Shown: one piece after another, positions 5,150-59,142 of the stretch
Position numbering within the stretch: position 1 is the first letter of the stretch
How the letters are laid out: every line of letters starts with the position of its first letter
Origin: Hornefia butyriciproducens
Lineage (GTDB): Bacteria; Bacillota; Clostridia; Peptostreptococcales; Anaerovoracaceae
NCBI RefSeq assembly: GCF_009695915.1
Contig: NZ_VUMZ01000011.1
Span: 1 to 64,000, forward strand
Length of the DNA stretch: 64,000 nt
Direction: 5' to 3'
Made by a program: the position numbers and the translations under genes
Notes under the pieces: model-generated
The model's input: only the letters and a program-made list of their open reading frames with translations
What the model was told of the DNA's origin: nothing
The model's database searches: none

Positions 5150-5246
5150 AATTCGTGTCTGCTCATTAAGTCCGCGGCGCACCATCCAATGGAAGAGCGC
5201 GCCGGCAGACACTAATTAATGCTTGTGCTCAGGGATTCGGCCGTTT
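5150..5246 (+). repeat. MITE-like repeat, short form (partner at 46856)
   Basis: The core 5150-5217 is bounded by AATTCGTGTCTGC and GCAGACACTAATT, imperfect 13-bp inverted ends, and contains CTCATTAAGTCC followed by CGCACCATCCAATGGAAG. The same sequence with the same ends recurs at 46856-46967 but with 44 extra internal bases. Similarity continues past the right end as ATGCTTGTGCTCAGGGATTC to CCGTTT near 5246 in both copies. No coding capacity. Confidence 0.85.
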
Positions 5247-5258
5247 CCGAATTCCTCT

Positions 5259-5367
5259 GCCGCAGGTTTTTCGGATGAAACGCTTGAAAACCTTGCGGCA
5301 GGCTACCGAATATGCTCTTTGTATTATTGATATTTCAAGCATATTCGGTAACTGAGCACGCATTAAT
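5259..5367 (+). repeat. interspersed repeat B (copies at 36210 and, partial, 20289)
   Basis: Segments GCCGCAGGTTTTTCGGAT, GCGGCAGGCTACCGAATATG, ATTGATATTTCAAGCATAT and AGCACGCATTAAT recur in the same order on the opposite strand at 36210-36317, and the last part recurs at 20289-20338. The unit has internal dyad symmetry (CCGAATATG against CATATTCGG), and the CTGAGCACGCATTAAT end is nearly the reverse complement of ATTAATGCTTGTGCTCAG at 5214-5231, so 5214-5367 may be one element with inverted ends. Confidence 0.8.
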
Positions 5368-5493: not shown

Positions 5494-5518
5494 CTTATTC
5501 AGTTGTCTTCAGTTGTCA

Positions 5519-5552
5519 GCGCTTCTTCAAGTCCGACGGGAACTTAATGAGC
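5519..5552. repeat. short palindromic repeat, degenerate copy
   Basis: The right arm ACTTAATGAGC (5542-5552) matches the family seen at 29519, 34262, 40055 and 46867; the left arm GCTTCTTCAAGTCC differs at a few positions from the usual GCTCATTAAGTCC. It sits between the ppdK stop codon and its terminator. Confidence 0.65.
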
Positions 5553-5561
5553 ACCCACTGA

Positions 5562-8192
5562 TTACTTCTGCTCCTGCTTAATCGCCGCCTGCGCAGCCGC
5601 CAGTCTGGCGACCGGTACACGATACGGTGAGCAAGAGACGTACTGCAGCCCGACTTTGTTGCAGAATTCAATAGATTTCGGATCGCCGCCGTGCTCGCCG
5701 CAGATTCCCAAATGGATGTTCGGACGAGTCTTCTTGCCCAGTTTCACAGCATTCTCAACCAGCTTGCCGACGCCGTTCTGGTCGATGGTCTTGAACGGAT
5801 CGGACTCCAGAATTCCTTTGTCCACATAGGAGCGAATCAGCTCGGCAGTGTCGTCTCTGGAGAAGCCGAAGGTCATCTGCGTAAGGTCATTTGTACCGAA
5901 GGAGAAGAACTCCGCTTCCTCTGCGATCTCATCTGCGGTCAGTGCCGCTCTCGGAATCTCGATCATGGTTCCGACGAGATAATCAATCTTCTTTCCGGCC
6001 TTCTCGAAGCATCTGTTAATCGTATCAACAACAGTCTTCTTGACATTCGCAAGTTCGTTCTTTGAGCCGACCAGCGGAATCATGATTTCCGGAACGATCT
6101 CGATGCCTTCTTCATCGATGACTTCCAGTGCCGCCGTGATGATCGCTTCGGTCTGCATTTCAGCGATCTCCGGATAGGATACCGCAAGTCTGCAGCCTCT
6201 GTGTCCCAGCATCGGGTTGAATTCCTTCAGTTTGGCCGCTTCGGCCTCAATCTTCTCAACGGACACGCCGCTGCTCTCAGACAGCTGCTTCACTTCCTCA
6301 GGAGTCTTCGGCAGGAACTCGTGAAGCGGCGGATCCAGCAGACGGACAGTCATCGGACGGTCACCCATCGTCTTATACATCGCCTTGAAATCGCTCTTCT
6401 GGAAAGGCAACAGTTTCGCCAGCGCCTTTCTTCTGGCCTCCTCAGTATCTGCGATGATCATTTCGCGAATTGCCGGAATTCTCTCTTCCTCGAAGAACAT
6501 ATGCTCTGTACGGCAGAGTCCGATTCCCTCCGCACCGAATTCGATTGCCTGTTTTGCGTCTCTCGGAGTATCTGCGTTGGTTCTTACCTTCATGGTGCGC
6601 AGTTCGTCGGCCCAGCTCATGATCGTATCGAAGTTTCCGGAAATGTCCGGCGGAACCAGTTTCAGCAGACCGCTGTAAACGTCGCCTGTCGTGCCGTCTA
6701 CCGAAATGTAGTCATCCGGTCCATAGACTTTGCCGCCGACTTCCAGGGTTTTCTCCTCTTCGCTGATCTTCAGTGCGGAGCAACCGGTAACGCAGCATTT
6801 CCCCATGCCGCGGGCAACGACCGCAGCGTGAGAGGTTGCGCCGCCGTGTGCGGTCAGGATTCCCTGTGCGGCAACCATGCCGGCCAGATCTTCCGGTGAA
6901 GTTTCCGTCCGAACCAGAATCGCTTTTTCGCCGGCTTCCGCAGCAGCCGCCGCCTCATCCGCGGAGAAGCAAATCTTTCCGCAGGCTGCCCCCGGGGAAG
7001 CATTCAGTCCATGTGCGATCGGTGTTGCCGCCGCCTCTTCATCCGCGTCGAATCTCGGGTGAAGAAGGTGCTCTACAAAGTCGGGTTCAATTCTCAGAAC
7101 CGCTGTTTTCTTGTCGATCAGACCTTCATTTACCATATCCACCGCAATATTGACTGCGGCTTCAGCAGTTCTCTTTCCGTTTCTGGTCTGCAGCATGAAC
7201 AGTTTCCCGTTCTCAACGGTGAACTCCATGTCCTGCATATCTGTATAGTGCTGCTCCAGCTTGGAAGCAATCTCTTTGAACTGTGCATACACTTCCGGGA
7301 AGGTCTCTGCCATCTCGGAAATCTTCTTCGGCGTCCTGATGCCGGCTACCACGTCTTCGCCCTGTGCGTTGACCAGGAATTCACCGTAGAGGACATTTTC
7401 TCCCGTCGCTGGGTTTCTGGTGAAGGCAACGCCGGTGCCGGAATCATTTCCTTTGTTTCCGAACACCATGGACTGTACGTTGACAGCAGTTCCCAGATCC
7501 TCCGGGATGTCGTTCAGTTTTCTGTACAGGATCGCCCGGTCATTTCCCCAGGAACGGAAGACCGCTTTGATGGCTTCCATCAGCTGCTCCTGTGGATCCT
7601 GCGGGAATTCGCGTCCGAGAACCTTTACGTACAGTTTTTTGTATCCCTCAATAATATCCTTCAGATCTTCAGTCTTCAGGTCAACATCGAACTCTGCGCC
7701 GACTTCTGCCTTCTTGCCGTCAAAAATCTCGTTGAACTGTTTCATCGGGACTTCCATTACAACATCGCCGAACATCTGCAGAAATCTTCTGTAGCTGTCA
7801 TAGGCAAATCTTTCATTATCTGTCTGCTTCGCCAGCGCAACGACAGTCTCGTCATTCAAACCGAGGTTCAGAACCGTATCCATCATGCCCGGCATGGAGA
7901 TAGGCGCTCCGGAACGAACGGAAACCAGCAGGGGATCCTCAGGATCTCCAAGCTTCTTTCCCATGACCGATTCCAGCTCATCCTGATGCGCTTTGATCTC
8001 TTCAATGATGCTGTCGTCGATTTTTCCACCGTCTGCATAATACTGTTTGCAGGCGTCGGTCGTAACGGTGAATCCAAACGGCACCGGCATGCCGGATTTT
8101 GTCATCTCAGCCAGATTCGCTCCCTTTCCGCCGAGCAGGGCTCTCATGTCCTTGGAACCCTCGTTGAATGAGTAAACAAATTTTTTCTCCAT
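5562..8192 (-). CDS. ppdK: pyruvate, phosphate dikinase
   Basis: 876 residues, the usual length of PPDK. It interconverts pyruvate, ATP and phosphate with phosphoenolpyruvate, AMP and pyrophosphate in the cytoplasm. Visible landmarks are the N-terminal ATP-grasp start GGKGANLAEM, the swivelling phosphohistidine domain with GGATSHAAVVARGMG, and the C-terminal TIM-barrel with the catalytic cysteine in GICGEHGGDP. I chose ATG 8192, which has GAGGT upstream; an in-frame extension to 8240 would run back into glyS. It follows glyS by 25 bases and ends the long leftward housekeeping run, with its own terminator at 5429-5493. Confidence 0.97.
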   Translation of the reverse strand: MEKKFVYSFNEGSKDMRALLGGKGANLAEMTKSGMPVPFGFTVTTDACKQYYADGGKIDDSIIEEIKAHQDELESVMGKKLGDPEDPLLVSVRSGAPISMPGMMDTVLNLGLNDETVVALAKQTDNERFAYDSYRRFLQMFGDVVMEVPMKQFNEIFDGKKAEVGAEFDVDLKTEDLKDIIEGYKKLYVKVLGREFPQDPQEQLMEAIKAVFRSWGNDRAILYRKLNDIPEDLGTAVNVQSMVFGNKGNDSGTGVAFTRNPATGENVLYGEFLVNAQGEDVVAGIRTPKKISEMAETFPEVYAQFKEIASKLEQHYTDMQDMEFTVENGKLFMLQTRNGKRTAEAAVNIAVDMVNEGLIDKKTAVLRIEPDFVEHLLHPRFDADEEAAATPIAHGLNASPGAACGKICFSADEAAAAAEAGEKAILVRTETSPEDLAGMVAAQGILTAHGGATSHAAVVARGMGKCCVTGCSALKISEEEKTLEVGGKVYGPDDYISVDGTTGDVYSGLLKLVPPDISGNFDTIMSWADELRTMKVRTNADTPRDAKQAIEFGAEGIGLCRTEHMFFEEERIPAIREMIIADTEEARRKALAKLLPFQKSDFKAMYKTMGDRPMTVRLLDPPLHEFLPKTPEEVKQLSESSGVSVEKIEAEAAKLKEFNPMLGHRGCRLAVSYPEIAEMQTEAIITAALEVIDEEGIEIVPEIMIPLVGSKNELANVKKTVVDTINRCFEKAGKKIDYLVGTMIEIPRAALTADEIAEEAEFFSFGTNDLTQMTFGFSRDDTAELIRSYVDKGILESDPFKTIDQNGVGKLVENAVKLGKKTRPNIHLGICGEHGGDPKSIEFCNKVGLQYVSCSPYRVPVARLAAAQAAIKQEQK

Positions 8193-29482: not shown

Positions 29483-29518
29483 AGGCTCCTCCCCTCAGTT
29501 CAATACGCACCGGTCAGC

Positions 29519-29576
29519 GCTCATTAAGTCCTGCGTGGCTTAATGAGCGGATACTGTTATTTATGATATCACAAAG
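29519..29576 (+). repeat. short palindromic repeat copy
   Basis: GCTCATTAAG (29519-29528) pairs with CTTAATGAGC (29539-29548). The following bases ACTGTTATTTATGATATCAC are close to those after the copy at 34262, so the repeated unit is about 58 bases. It lies between the fusion gene and the PHP gene. Confidence 0.8.
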
Positions 29577-30508: not shown

Positions 30509-31708
30509 CTACCGGGTTTCCAGAGAATATTTTTCTGCGACCCGGCGGAATCCCGGCAGGGAATTTACAATCGTATCATAGGCGACACAGTACGAGATTC
30601 GAATATATCCGGGACCGGCAAAGGCGCTGCCCGGGGTCACTAGGATATGCTCCTCTTTCAGCCGTCCGACGAATTCGGTCTCATCCTCATCCGGGGATTT
30701 CACCCAAAGGTAAAACGCCCCCCGGGGCTCCAGGCAATCATAACCGGCCTCAGTCAGCCCGTCGTACAGCGTCCGCCCGTTCTTTTCATAAAAGGCGATA
30801 TCCGCCTTGGCATCCAGACAGCGTGTAATCGCCAGCTGAATCAGAGACGGCGCGTTGACAATTCCGATAATCCGGTTGGCAATCGTCGCCGCCGTAATGA
30901 ATTCCTGTGAATCATCTGACGCATCGGGAACCAGAACATATCCGATCCGCTCCCCCGGCAGGGAAAGTGATTTACTGTAGGAATAACAGATAATCGTATT
31001 GTCATAATAATCCGGGATATGCGGAACCTCTGCATCGCCGTAAACCAGTTCTCGGTACGGCTCGTCCGAAATCAGATAGATTGGATGCCCGATCCTCTCT
31101 GATTCCTCCGCCAGAATTTCCGCCAGCTGCCGGATCACCGTCTCCGGATAGACCACTCCCGTGGGATTGTTCGGCGTATTGACGATGATTGCCTTTGTCT
31201 TTTCTGTGACCGCCTTCCTCAGCCCTTCCATATCCGGCAGGAAGGATCCGTCTGGCCGCGGTGCGACTTCCACCGTCTCCGCATAGAAATTTCCGATGTA
31301 ATTTTTGTATTCCACAAAGTACGGTGCGAAGACGATGACCTCGTCCCCGGGATCCAGAATCGTCTTCAGCGCGACATTCAGCGCTGAGCCCGCCCCGGCG
31401 CTCATAATCACATTTTCCGCGCGATAGGCCGTGCCGTACCGACGGTTCAGATCCTCCGCAATCGCCTGCCGCGTCTCCTCAAAGCCCGCGTTGGACATGT
31501 ACCCGTGCACCCGGATCGGATCCTCGTTCTGCAGAATATCGACAATGGCGTCGCTGACCGCCCGGGGCGCCGGCACGTTGGGATTTCCCAGGCTGAAATC
31601 ATAGACGTTTTCCGGTCCCACGACCTGCGCCATTTTCTTCCCTTCCTCGAACATCTGCCGGATTACAGAGTTTCCGGCAACTCTCGGTTTCATATTTTCC
31701 GCGATCAT
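30509..31708 (-). CDS. PLP-dependent aminotransferase, class I/II
   Basis: 399 residues of fold-type I. NTPNNPTGVVYP is the PLP-ring Asn region, YSYSKSLSLPGERIGYV holds the Schiff-base lysine, and YIRISYC the substrate arginine. It overlaps iorB by four bases, so it is co-translated with the indolepyruvate:ferredoxin oxidoreductase. It most likely transaminates aromatic (or other) amino acids to the 2-oxoacids used by IorAB. Confidence 0.92.
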   Translation of the reverse strand: MIAENMKPRVAGNSVIRQMFEEGKKMAQVVGPENVYDFSLGNPNVPAPRAVSDAIVDILQNEDPIRVHGYMSNAGFEETRQAIAEDLNRRYGTAYRAENVIMSAGAGSALNVALKTILDPGDEVIVFAPYFVEYKNYIGNFYAETVEVAPRPDGSFLPDMEGLRKAVTEKTKAIIVNTPNNPTGVVYPETVIRQLAEILAEESERIGHPIYLISDEPYRELVYGDAEVPHIPDYYDNTIICYSYSKSLSLPGERIGYVLVPDASDDSQEFITAATIANRIIGIVNAPSLIQLAITRCLDAKADIAFYEKNGRTLYDGLTEAGYDCLEPRGAFYLWVKSPDEDETEFVGRLKEEHILVTPGSAFAGPGYIRISYCVAYDTIVNSLPGFRRVAEKYSLETR

Positions 31709-34071: not shown

Positions 34072-34396
34072 CCTTGTCTTTTCCTCCTGCTATATTAAAG
34101 ATGTTCTTTCCCGATTTTACCACTCCTCGCAGACGGATTTCCCTCCTGCGACCGATACAGATAATTCTCCGCCTTCTGTGACCGGCGACGCTGACAGCCA
34201 TCTGTCACACGCCCTGTTTATGCGGTACCTGCCGCGTCAGTGCAGAAAAACTGCCGTAAGCGCTCATTAAGTCCAACGGAAGCTTAATGAACAGACTCTA
34301 TTATAATATCACAAAATATAGTTCCTGTTGCCTTTGTCACAAAAAAATCTGTGTGAAAACGACCGGCTTTTTTCGATTCCCCGTCCGCATACGGAA
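34072..34396. other. 325-base spacer with one palindromic repeat
   Basis: Contains the iorA leader (34072-34100), a non-coding GC-rich stretch, the palindromic repeat at 34262-34320 and the end of the hxlR transcript. No other gene seen. Confidence 0.5.
34262..34320 (+). repeat. short palindromic repeat copy
   Basis: TCATTAAG (34264-34271) pairs with CTTAATGA (34283-34290) and the right flank CTCTATTATAATATCACAAA repeats that of the copy at 29519. The flank contains TATTATAATA, which could act as a -10 box. Confidence 0.8.
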
Positions 34397-36209: not shown

Positions 36210-36317
36210 TTAATGCGTGCCCGGCCATCGGATATGCTTGAAATATCAATCATGCAGAGAGTATATTCGGTGGCCTGCCGCAGGGCTTCAGAGAACTTTA
36301 TCCGAAAAACCTGCGGC
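36210..36317 (-). repeat. repeat B, full copy, reaching into a coding region
   Basis: Reverse-strand match to 5259-5367 over its whole length with scattered differences. Its far end (36298-36317, CTTTATCCGAAAAACCTGCG region) overlaps the last codons and stop codon of the YibE/F gene. Confidence 0.8.
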
Positions 36318-39761: not shown

Positions 39762-40054
39762 TTATTTGTAAACAAAGAACTCTCTCAGAAAGTATTCATG
39801 AAGTCTTTTATCGCCTGACACCTCCGGATGAAATGCGAGGGCAAGCTGATTCTTGTATTCCGCCGCAACGATGTGCCCGTTCACCTCCGCAAGAGTCTGC
39901 ACAGCAGGATCATCCCTGCACAAGTCCCCAGAACCGGCATTCCTCCCTGAATAAACGCTCTGATCGGTTCGAGCATTCCCGTCTCTTGCAGCAGCCGCTT
40001 CTGCGATTCTAGCCTGTTCGGCATTGGTAACATCCATAATCACTCTGCCTTTCA
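39762..40054 (-). pseudogene. decayed pdxS-pdxT remnant
   Basis: Three pieces of the vitamin B6 synthase pair follow one another. First, VIMDVTNAEQARIAEAA matches the N-terminal region of PdxS. Second, in another frame beginning at 39976, MLEPIRAFIQGGMPVLGTCA followed by GMILL is the PdxT glutaminase nucleophile region. Third, back in the first frame, GHIVAAEYKNQLALAFHPEV and the following SGDKRLHEYFL are the PdxT C-terminus with its catalytic His-Glu region. Large parts of both genes are missing, so this is a double-deletion relic. A palindromic repeat abuts its 5' edge. Confidence 0.85.
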
Positions 40055-40088
40055 GCATCCATTAAGTCCCGGCAAGGGCTTAATGAGC
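40055..40088. repeat. short palindromic repeat at the pdxST break
   Basis: ATTAAG (40061-40066) pairs with CTTAAT (40079-40084) within GCATCCATTAAGTCC and GGGCTTAATGAGC arms, a family copy with a two-base change in the left arm. It directly follows the PdxS fragment. Confidence 0.75.
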
Positions 40089-40157
40089 AGGCACCATTTA
40101 ATATACGGAAAAACTGTTCTTTCCAAAAGATGCAAAAGCTTTTATTTTTTAGAGTAG

Positions 40158-46855: not shown

Positions 46856-46996
46856 AATTAGTGTCTGCTCATTAAGTCCCCGTCGGACTTAATGGGCGCT
46901 GACGGCAGTTTTTCAGCAGCGCCGCGACGCACCATCCAATGGAAGGGTACGCCGGCAGACACTAATTGATGCTTGTGCTCAGGGATTCGGCCGTTT
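46856..46996 (+). repeat. MITE-like repeat, long form (partner at 5150)
   Basis: Perfect 13-bp inverted ends AATTAGTGTCTGC (46856-46868) and GCAGACACTAATT (46955-46967). Inside, GCTCATTAAGTCC (46867-46879) pairs with GGACTTAATGGGC (46885-46897), i.e. a complete short palindrome. Relative to 5150-5217 it has 44 more internal bases. Similarity to the other copy runs on to CCGTTT at 46996. No coding capacity. Confidence 0.88.
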
Positions 46997-54287: not shown

Positions 54288-55562
54288 TTAAACCTCCGCA
54301 AGTGCCTGCGCCAAATCGTCGATGATATCGTCTGCGTTCTCAATTCCTACGGAGAGCCGGATCAGATCCGGTCCTACTCCGCCTGCGGTCAGTTCCTCGT
54401 CAGTCAGCTGCTTGTGTGTGGAGTTCGCCGGATGCAGAATGCAGGTGTGCGCGTCCGCCACATGCGTCGCAATGATCGCCACGTTCAGATGCTTCATGAA
54501 TTCCTCCGCGGCGGCACGTCCTCCGCGTAGACCAAAGGAAATGACTCCGCATGTTCCCTCCGGCATATACTTTTTCGCCCGGTCATAATATTTGTTTCCC
54601 GGAAGTCCCGGGTAATTGACCCAGGCCACCTTCTCGTTTTTCTCCAGGAATTCCGCGACCTTCTGCGCATTTTCCACGTGACGTTTCATACGCACGTCCA
54701 GCGACTCCAATCCCAGGTTCAGGAAAAACGCGTTCATCGGCGCCTGAATGGCTCCCAGATCCCGCATCAGCTGTGCGGTGCATTTTGTGATAAACGCGCC
54801 CTCTTTTCCGAATTTCTCTGCATAGGTGATTCCGTGATAGGATTCATCCGGAGTGCAGAGACCCGGGAATTTTTCTTTGTGGGCCATCCAGTCGAAATTA
54901 CCGCTGTCCACTATACATCCGCCTACGGAGGTGTCGTGGCCGTCCATGTACTTCGTCGTGGAGTGGGTCACGATGTCGGCGCCCCATTCAAAGGGTCTGC
55001 AGTTGATGGGTGTGGCGAAGGTGTTGTCTATGATCAGAGGAACGCCGTGAGCGTGGGCCGCATCAGCGAACTTCTCAATGTCGAGTACGATCAGCGCCGG
55101 ATTGGCGATGGTTTCGCCGAACACCGCCTTTGTATTCGGCCGAAAAGCAGCCTCCAGCTCCTCCGCGGAGCAGTCGGGGTCGACAAAGGTGAAATCCACG
55201 CCCATTCTACGCATAGTCACGTTGAAGAGGTTGAATGTTCCCCCGTAGATTGTGGATGAGGAGATCACATGATCCCCCTCGCCCGCGATATTGAAAACTG
55301 CGAAAAAGGACGCCGCCTGTCCGGAGGACGTCAGCATTGCCGCAGTTCCTCCTTCAAGCGCCGCGATCTTGGCGGCCACCATATCGTTCGTCGGGTTCTG
55401 AAGACGCGTATAAAAATAGCCCTCCGCCTCCAGGTCGAACAGTTTTCCCATCGCCTCGCTGCTGTCATATCTGAAGGTTGTGCTCTGGATAATCGGAATC
55501 ATGCGCGGATCACCATTCCCCGGCGTATATCCCGCCTGAATGCATTTTGTTTCTTTTCTCAT
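54288..55562 (-). CDS. metY: O-acetylhomoserine sulfhydrylase-type PLP enzyme
   Basis: 424 residues of the Cys/Met metabolism PLP family. The PLP lysine lies in HSTTKYMDGHDTSVGG, and YFYTRLQNPTNDMVAAKIAAL and SSSTIYGGTFNLF are typical of O-acetylhomoserine aminocarboxypropyltransferases. It makes homocysteine from O-acetylhomoserine and sulfide. No SAM riboswitch or T-box is visible in the 100-base upstream region. GGAGG precedes the ATG. Confidence 0.93.
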   Translation of the reverse strand: MRKETKCIQAGYTPGNGDPRMIPIIQSTTFRYDSSEAMGKLFDLEAEGYFYTRLQNPTNDMVAAKIAALEGGTAAMLTSSGQAASFFAVFNIAGEGDHVISSSTIYGGTFNLFNVTMRRMGVDFTFVDPDCSAEELEAAFRPNTKAVFGETIANPALIVLDIEKFADAAHAHGVPLIIDNTFATPINCRPFEWGADIVTHSTTKYMDGHDTSVGGCIVDSGNFDWMAHKEKFPGLCTPDESYHGITYAEKFGKEGAFITKCTAQLMRDLGAIQAPMNAFFLNLGLESLDVRMKRHVENAQKVAEFLEKNEKVAWVNYPGLPGNKYYDRAKKYMPEGTCGVISFGLRGGRAAAEEFMKHLNVAIIATHVADAHTCILHPANSTHKQLTDEELTAGGVGPDLIRLSVGIENADDIIDDLAQALAEV

Positions 55563-57549: not shown

Positions 57550-57952
57550 TTCCCTCTACATATCCATCGAAACCTTTTCCGGTTATGGTTCCGATGCAGG
57601 CATCGCGCACAAAGGATACCCGACGGAAATCCTCGCGCTGATCCACATCGGAGAGATGTACCTCCACCGCAGGCAGTCCGACCGCCTTCAGCGCATCCAG
57701 AATCGCGATGCTGGTATGCGTATAGGCAGCAGGATTGATGACGATGCCGTCCGCATGTTCATATGCATTCTGGATCATGTCCACCAAATCCCCCTCATGA
57801 TTGGACTGGAAATATTCCACCGTAACATCCAGAGCCTGCGCCGCTCCATCGATGTAATGAAGAAGATCCTGGTAGGTCTTTTTCCCGTAAATATCCGGCT
57901 CCCGAATCCCCAACATGTTAAGATTCGGCCCGTTGATAACAAATACTTTCAT
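57512..57952 (-). CDS. aroQ: 3-dehydroquinate dehydratase, type II
   Basis: 146 residues, standard size. Motifs: INGPNLNMLGIREPDIYG (flexible loop with catalytic Tyr region), SNHEGDLVD, INPAAYTHTS and EVHLSDVDQREDFR. Third step of the shikimate pathway. Last gene of the aromatic operon, one-base overlap with aroEK (TAATG). Confidence 0.96.
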   Translation of the reverse strand: MKVFVINGPNLNMLGIREPDIYGKKTYQDLLHYIDGAAQALDVTVEYFQSNHEGDLVDMIQNAYEHADGIVINPAAYTHTSIAILDALKAVGLPAVEVHLSDVDQREDFRRVSFVRDACIGTITGKGFDGYVEGIKLLLNHCAGRE

Positions 57953-59142
57953 TATCTCATCTCCTGATTATTGTCAATGTAGTAGTCGCTCCAGCTTTCA
58001 TAAGCATCCTTGCGTTCATCGTACAAAATCTCAACCGGAGTTGTCAGGAGAATCGGTCTTCCGTCGGTTTCCAGTTTGTCCAGATCCCGCTTGATCCAGA
58101 TTACACTGCCGTTCTGCCGGATAATATTGTAGTTTGCCTTGTTCTTGACGATTCCGCCGCCCGTGGCAATCACCAGCCCGCGACGCATACACGCCTTACG
58201 AAGCATCTCCGTTTCCACACGACGGAAATAGGGCTCGCCCTTCTTCTCGAAAATTTCAGGAATGCTCATTCCTTCGCTTTCCGCCACCATGTCATCTATA
58301 TCCACAAATTCCCGGCCCATGCGTTCCGCCATTTTACGCCCCAGCATAGTCTTTCCCGAGCCGGGCATCCCGATCAGGATTTTGTTCAGCATTGCATCCC
58401 TCACCTCGTCTACTGCGACGGGGATTTCTTCCGGATCGATTTCCGTTCCCTGAAACAGCTCACTGGCCTCCCATGCCTGCGCCACCAGCATTTCAAGACC
58501 GCTGGTGCAGGGGATTCCCCTTTCCATGGCGTCCAGAATCAGCTTGGTTCGGTTCGGATTGTAAATTAAGTCCACTACGCCGCGGCAGTCGGTGAACAGG
58601 TCCAGATCCACCAGAGACACCAAGTTGTTCGGATACATTCCCACCGGAGTCGTATTGATGATAATCTGCGCGTCGAAATTTCTGTCCATGTTCTCGTAAT
58701 TGTTCTCACCGGTTCTGGAAACAGTGACAATCTCCCTCGCTCCCAGATCCTCCAGCACGGTCCTTACTGTATGTGAAGATCCACCGGATCCGAGGATCAC
58801 GCACTTCTGCCCTCCCGGATCAATTCGGTTTGTTTCCAGCATATAACGGAATCCAAAATAGTCCGTATTATAACCGGTCAGCCTGCCGCTGTCATCCCGG
58901 ACAATGGTATTGACACTTCCGATCCTCCGGCTGTCGTTGCTGATCTCATCACAAAACTCCATCACCTTCTGTTTGTACGGAATCGTCACATTGAACCCGT
59001 CGTAGAGTCCGGATCGAAGAAGTGTTTCCAGATCATCCGGCTCCACCTCGCAGAGCTCATACTCATAGTCTCCGAATTTGCTGTGAATCAGCGGTGAATA
59101 GCTGTGTCCCAGTCTGCCGCCGATCAGTGCGAACTTATACAT
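57952..59142 (-). CDS. aroEK: fused shikimate dehydrogenase - shikimate kinase
   Basis: 396 residues. Residues 1-250: AroE with HSYSPLIHSKF, NVTIPYKQKVM, GYNTDYFGF and NAD(P)-binding LGSGGSSHTVRTVL. Residues 252-396: AroK with P-loop IGMPGSGKTMLGRKMA, DIDDMVAE and ATGGGIV. The junction PVAVDEVRDAMLNKILIGMP has no stop or frameshift. Both activities act one after the other in the pathway (dehydroshikimate to shikimate to shikimate 3-phosphate). Confidence 0.95.
   Translation of the reverse strand: MYKFALIGGRLGHSYSPLIHSKFGDYEYELCEVEPDDLETLLRSGLYDGFNVTIPYKQKVMEFCDEISNDSRRIGSVNTIVRDDSGRLTGYNTDYFGFRYMLETNRIDPGGQKCVILGSGGSSHTVRTVLEDLGAREIVTVSRTGENNYENMDRNFDAQIIINTTPVGMYPNNLVSLVDLDLFTDCRGVVDLIYNPNRTKLILDAMERGIPCTSGLEMLVAQAWEASELFQGTEIDPEEIPVAVDEVRDAMLNKILIGMPGSGKTMLGRKMAERMGREFVDIDDMVAESEGMSIPEIFEKKGEPYFRRVETEMLRKACMRRGLVIATGGGIVKNKANYNIIRQNGSVIWIKRDLDKLETDGRPILLTTPVEILYDERKDAYESWSDYYIDNNQEMR

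Follow-up and report, generated by a model that had tools for sequence, protein, structure and literature searches.

The window considered here is the 64,000-nucleotide stretch at the start of contig NZ_VUMZ01000011.1 of Hornefia butyriciproducens (assembly GCF_009695915.1). At positions 39,762 to 40,088, some 300 bases of the minus strand hold, in operon order, a piece of the vitamin B6 synthase protein PdxS, a piece from the middle of PdxT, and the PdxT C-terminus, and the PdxS piece is fused to the end of a repeat that recurs elsewhere in the window. The features are as follows.

39762..39902, minus strand: PdxT remnant, C-terminus to the stop codon (TIGR03800 1.8e-9, profile positions 144–183 of 184)
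39899..40000, minus strand: PdxT remnant, middle, 34 codons with a GTCAGMIL motif (TIGR03800 2.0e-10, profile positions 51–85 of 184)
39987..40058, minus strand: PdxS remnant, near the N-terminus, 24 codons, MLKGRVIMDVTNAEQARIAEAAAA (TIGR00343 9.1e-6, profile positions 8–32 of 287)
40045..40099, minus strand: left ~55 nt of the dispersed element (its end and first hairpin), fused to the PdxS remnant (78% identity to element positions 1–53)
40100..40126, minus strand: possible remains of the pdxST promoter (TTGGAA, 15 bases, TATATT), by eye only
46856..46996, plus strand: better-preserved copy of the element, positions 1–141 of 261 (98% identity)
5172..5366, plus strand: copy of the element, positions 67–261 (94% identity)

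The pdxS and pdxT remnants

Read on the minus strand, the PdxS remnant runs as MLKG..EAAAA from 40058 to 39987, and is followed by the PdxT middle piece (KRLL..GTCAGMILLC, 40000 to 39899), whose frame differs from those of both neighboring pieces, and then by the C-terminal piece (VQTLAEV..HEYFL, 39902 to 39786), whose frame continues to the stop ending at 39762. An earlier note on this DNA had described the same succession, with the nucleophile region of PdxT (GTCAGMI) displaced into another frame, and both the order and the displacement are borne out by the profile matches and their coordinates. With Pfam, the two PdxT pieces were matched to SNO (8.5e-9 and 1.2e-6) above its gathering score, and the PdxS piece to SOR_SNZ (9.8e-6) just under its own (25.9 against 27), while no piece reaches the full-length NCBIfam cut-offs of TIGR00343 or TIGR03800. 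Three colinear matches on the same strand are very unlikely to have a chance origin.

The coding capacity of this stretch has been destroyed, only small portions of either profile being left, in two frames. The deletion of most of both genes, also claimed beforehand, is evident from the profile ranges given above, and an estimate from the absent profile positions puts the loss at ~1.1 kb of pdxS and pdxT in total. The junctions are tight: the PdxS and PdxT middle pieces both claim the same 14 bases (39987–40000), the PdxT middle and C-terminal pieces have 4 bases in common, and bases 40045–40058 can be assigned to the repeat fragment as well as to the PdxS piece. The fragment at 40045–40099, which matches the left end of the dispersed element, is the repeat that had been noticed at the edge of the relic. 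Altogether, the stretch is very probably a unitary pseudogene, that is, a pdxS–pdxT operon cut to three fragments by internal deletions, and what it records is the ordinary decay of vitamin pathway genes.

The same site could be compared in a sister species, G007, whose assembly consists of three contigs and is 98% complete. The flanks of the relic, ~1.5 kb on each side, are 91–92% identical in the two genomes by BLAST, and the G007 site is bordered by a 762-residue and an 868-residue frame, which are as long as the phosphoesterase and the P-type ATPase of the window. Between these genes, only 57 bases of G007 still align with the relic, at its end, where they comprise the final PdxT codons together with the DNA beyond them; a search of the G007 genome gave no match for PdxS and, for PdxT, none over the cut-off. 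At the place of the TATATT box it carries TATAAT. Because the flanks, the neighboring genes, and the PdxT tail are common to both genomes, the common ancestor probably had the operon at this site, intact or in an already broken state. Read from these sequences, the locus is eroding in both species, to different degrees.

It is conceivable that the relic has instead given rise to something new, since a 98-codon open frame (39762–40058) holds both the PdxS piece and the PdxT C-terminus and could encode a small working protein fused from the ends of the two enzymes. However, the middle of this frame is PdxT in the wrong frame, both enzymes are mostly missing, and the frame's stretch is gone from G007 but for the 57 bases at its end. 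A working fusion was rejected on the last of these grounds, and as an explanation it is barely credible next to a decayed operon.

As a separate observation on the window, a 396-residue frame on the minus strand (57952–59142), with shikimate dehydrogenase N-terminal and shikimate kinase domains, looks like an AroE–AroK fusion; it adjoins a chorismate mutase–prephenate dehydratase frame.

Vitamin B6 synthesis and salvage

The earlier note had drawn attention to enzymes in the window that use pyridoxal phosphate (PLP), and an aminotransferase (30509–31708) and an enzyme of Cys/Met metabolism (54288–55562) are indeed encoded there; PLP is therefore needed. Its further suggestion, that de novo synthesis of the cofactor may have been lost, came with a check set beforehand, namely a search for intact pdxST elsewhere in the genome. 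In the H. butyriciproducens assembly (G000; 2.44 Mb in 28 contigs, 98.46% complete, not closed), family searches found no intact PdxS, the relic being the sole match, and no intact PdxT, no match exceeding the cut-off. The PdxT family was represented by the two relic pieces and by two weak partial matches in open frames of 520 and 207 residues, which are taken as other glutamine amidotransferases. An intact copy elsewhere was rejected on the strength of these searches. Moreover, PdxJ, the signature of the other, DXP-dependent de novo route, gave no match in G000 or G007 and was positive in four of 14 control genomes, so that synthesis by way of PdxJ was likewise rejected.

Of course, an assembly of 28 contigs and 98.46% completeness leaves room for a working pdxST in an unassembled part of the genome, in which case the relic would be the decayed second copy. 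Against this stand the absence of any PdxS match but the relic and the three-contig genome of G007, which also lacks PdxS and any PdxT over the cut-off, and this alternative is highly improbable. With no intact PdxS or PdxT and no PdxJ in the assembly, the proposed loss is supported: de novo PLP synthesis looks lost in this organism, which is probably a B6 auxotroph living on salvage, the auxotrophy itself being a prediction from the genome searches.

Across a wider sample, PdxS exceeded its curated cut-off in 23 of 119 genomes searched, the H. butyriciproducens genome counted among them. Within the genus, PdxT was found over the cut-off in two of 17 genomes (G002 and G016), and PdxS in the same two; absence is weaker evidence for G001, G004, G008, G010, and G011, which are 83–92% complete. 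The intact operons of G002 and G016 lie beside a divergent MocR-like regulator gene (by eye) and among other genes than those of the relic site, and the regulator of G016 shares 31% identity with the PdxR equivalog of H. butyriciproducens, described below. Among the genus genomes compared, no intact operon was found at the relic's own site.

Candidate genes for the salvage of pyridoxal, whose presence had also been proposed as a check, were found. A kinase-like protein of 277 residues is matched by NF005491 (pyridoxamine kinase) over residues 4–276 with 221 bits, under the curated cut-off of 231, and its best solved relative is a putative phosphomethylpyrimidine kinase (3mbh), followed by a pyridoxal kinase (3h74). 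Such a second kinase match (at or below 1e-20) occurs in four of the 17 genus genomes, G000, G006, G007, and G015, of which the NCBIfam scan covered that of G000 alone. In eleven of the 17, neither pdxST over the cut-off nor a second kinase match was found; this group includes incomplete genomes, as well as genomes in which a ThiD-like match could provide for PLP supply.

The second candidate component is a transporter subunit of family PF07155, which is the family of PdxU and PdxU2/HmpT (PMC9997740). This ECF S-component scores 136.2 bits against 26.7 for PF07155 and falls under the cut-offs of all four NCBIfam models that it matched; among solved structures it has a single relative at E 0.01, chain S of 4HZU, which is HmpT/PdxU2 (4hzu_S, E 2.1e-10). 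Divergent to the frame of the S-component, and 268 bases from it, lies the frame of a MocR-type protein that is a PdxR equivalog (NF052282, 439 bits against a cut-off of 320), and PdxR regulons are described as including pdxST, pdxK, and pdxU (PMC5320631). HmpT has been reported to carry pyridoxamine (PMC4860826), and at the seven pyridoxamine-contacting HmpT residues named in that report the S-component is identical at four (Trp76, Tyr120, Asn140, and Gln143), has Asp for Glu41, and has Lys for His84 and Ala for Ser136, the last two being changes without likeness. The abstract of the same report gives "Gln 43", where 4hzu_S has Gly at position 43, and Gln 143 was probably meant.

Genes of PF07155 were found in all 17 genus genomes, with four matches in H. 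butyriciproducens, and the family alone therefore says little about B6. In G006, a PF08543 kinase gene is the direct neighbor of a PF07155 gene, and the S-component of that pair is 46% identical to the one described here; three EcfT-family matches were also found in the H. butyriciproducens genome. Together, the kinase and the S-component would constitute the salvage route that replaced synthesis, with substrates that are inferred, that of the S-component from its gene context.

The dispersed 261-bp element

The repeat at the edge of the relic belongs to an element whose full copy (L199) measures 261 bp. Besides the copies listed above, further pieces occur in the window at 36210–36317, 34231–34300, 29513–29555, 5515–5563, and 5150–5182. 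At least 52 element pieces were matched in G000, at least 51 in G007, and three in G005, although a piece is not a copy (one copy yields several pieces) and 40 of 112 candidates were scored in G000 and 40 of 129 in G007. The other 14 of the 17 genus genomes gave no match at E 0.001. Full or nearly full copies number at least 13 in G000, at least 13 in G007, and one in G005 among the 30 loci returned. Several of those in G000 and G007 are 94–98% identical to the query copy, which suggests that the spread of the element was probably recent. A shorter form, without positions ~104–190, is found in both genomes (e.g., G000:C12:203774-203938 and G007 2644468-2644619).

The element ends in terminal inverted repeats, TGTCTGCTCA and TGAGCACGCA, which agree at 8 of 10 positions by eye. 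Strings of 7–8 bp common to both sides were seen, also by eye, in at least five of 27 copies (L199, L202, L205, L215, and L221); the sequence is AT-rich and the strings were read with no control for chance, and they are not clear in other copies, such as L213 and L217. Being short, dispersed in many copies, and bounded by inverted ends, the element is MITE-like. Some left flanks end in TATAAT-like boxes, and a preference for 5′ untranslated regions was considered and rejected, the neighborhoods of the 27 copies being mixed. As a weak test of viral origin, viral contigs were searched for one exact 34-base core pattern of the element, and it did not occur there. At one site common to G000 and G007 (L210, G000:C23:231911-232171; L206, G007:C1:1168210-1168470), the loop of the first hairpin is inverted relative to other copies, as might result from a single flip of the hairpin in the ancestor. 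At G000:C26:118133-118740 (L220 and L222), element copies stand in a head-to-tail tandem.

Folded as RNA, the plus strand of L199 reaches −154.3 kcal/mol, whereas 200 shuffles give −81.5 (sd 5.2), a z of −14.1. The predicted fold consists of two tandem cloverleaf-like domains, each of them made of three hairpins enclosed by a stem, and the fold of the opposite strand is almost as stable. The 51-nt fragment at the relic, folded alone, is not unusual (z −1.06, with 31 of 200 shuffles as stable). Among the 27 aligned copies, standard pairs fill 93.4% of cells, against 91.9% in shuffles, and pairs changed on both sides number 23, against 8.9 in shuffles, of which 0 of 500 reach 23. Sliding the partners by 1–3 columns lowers the paired cells to 34–40%. 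The structure was taken from one of the 27 related copies, a choice that favors high values in general but rarely inflates the tally of pairs in which both partners have changed; many of these paired changes are held by the G005 copy, which is 70% identical. The pairing of the element is kept, although this does not imply an RNA function, since the pairing could also be maintained by repair within inverted repeats. A known structured RNA was rejected as the identity of the element, no Rfam family having matched it at gathering score in five element-bearing loci and the window, where a tRNA alone reached that score.

The folded repeat is the more unusual and less expected part of the locus, relative to the relic. 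A compact, covarying, multi-copy element of this kind could serve the study of how small folded mobile sequences spread and what part they take in gene loss.

Proposed course of the loss and comparison with known systems

In the proposed course of events, an ancestor would have carried pdxST at the relic site, and the uptake and phosphorylation of B6 vitamers would have made de novo synthesis dispensable, so that the locus could decay. The deletions may have joined short similar stretches, as the 14 shared bases at 39987–40000 would fit. One deletion would have had one end within the small mobile element that lay ahead of pdxS and the other near codon 20 of that gene.

Whether the element merely arrived in a dead locus, or initiated the loss by inserting itself between pdxS and the promoter of the operon, is a question of order. 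Its left end abuts the TATATT box, and it is fused to pdxS, as would be expected of an insertion at that point; however, the order of events is unreadable, the promoter was read by eye only, and elsewhere the element is found next to open frames of intact appearance (as mechanical frames only). A triggering insertion is possible but rather unlikely. A wider proposal makes the 261-bp double-cloverleaf element a structured type of mobile DNA whose family is undescribed and which may be transcribed and work as RNA, its insertion having triggered the loss of B6 synthesis. As a whole this is distinctly improbable; "undescribed" here rests on the Rfam scan and a limited literature check.

The loss of a vitamin pathway is readable stepwise here, with two stages of decay at one site, relatives that hold the operon, and a candidate salvage route next to a PdxR-type regulator. 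The fragments of the relic match the families of the DXP-independent PLP synthase operon PdxST, often found next to PdxR, and stand in the same order. Unlike that operon, the relic lacks most of both genes, and no regulator gene lies beside it in the listed frames.

About 10% of analyzed organisms are reported to rely on B6 salvage (Denise et al. 2023, PMC9997740). H. butyriciproducens resembles them in showing no sign of the DXP-dependent or the DXP-independent pathway and in possessing a kinase and a candidate PdxU, and it differs in that a remnant of the lost operon can still be read, at two stages of decay in two species.

Finally, the 261-bp element is comparable to prokaryotic MITEs such as QMITE2 of Coxiella, as presented in PMC10969869, in being short, in its many copies, in its similar inverted ends and stable predicted folding, and in the 7–8 bp strings seen by eye at both ends of some copies. 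What sets it apart from QMITE2-type elements, as they are presented there, is the prediction of two tandem cloverleaf-like domains within its length.
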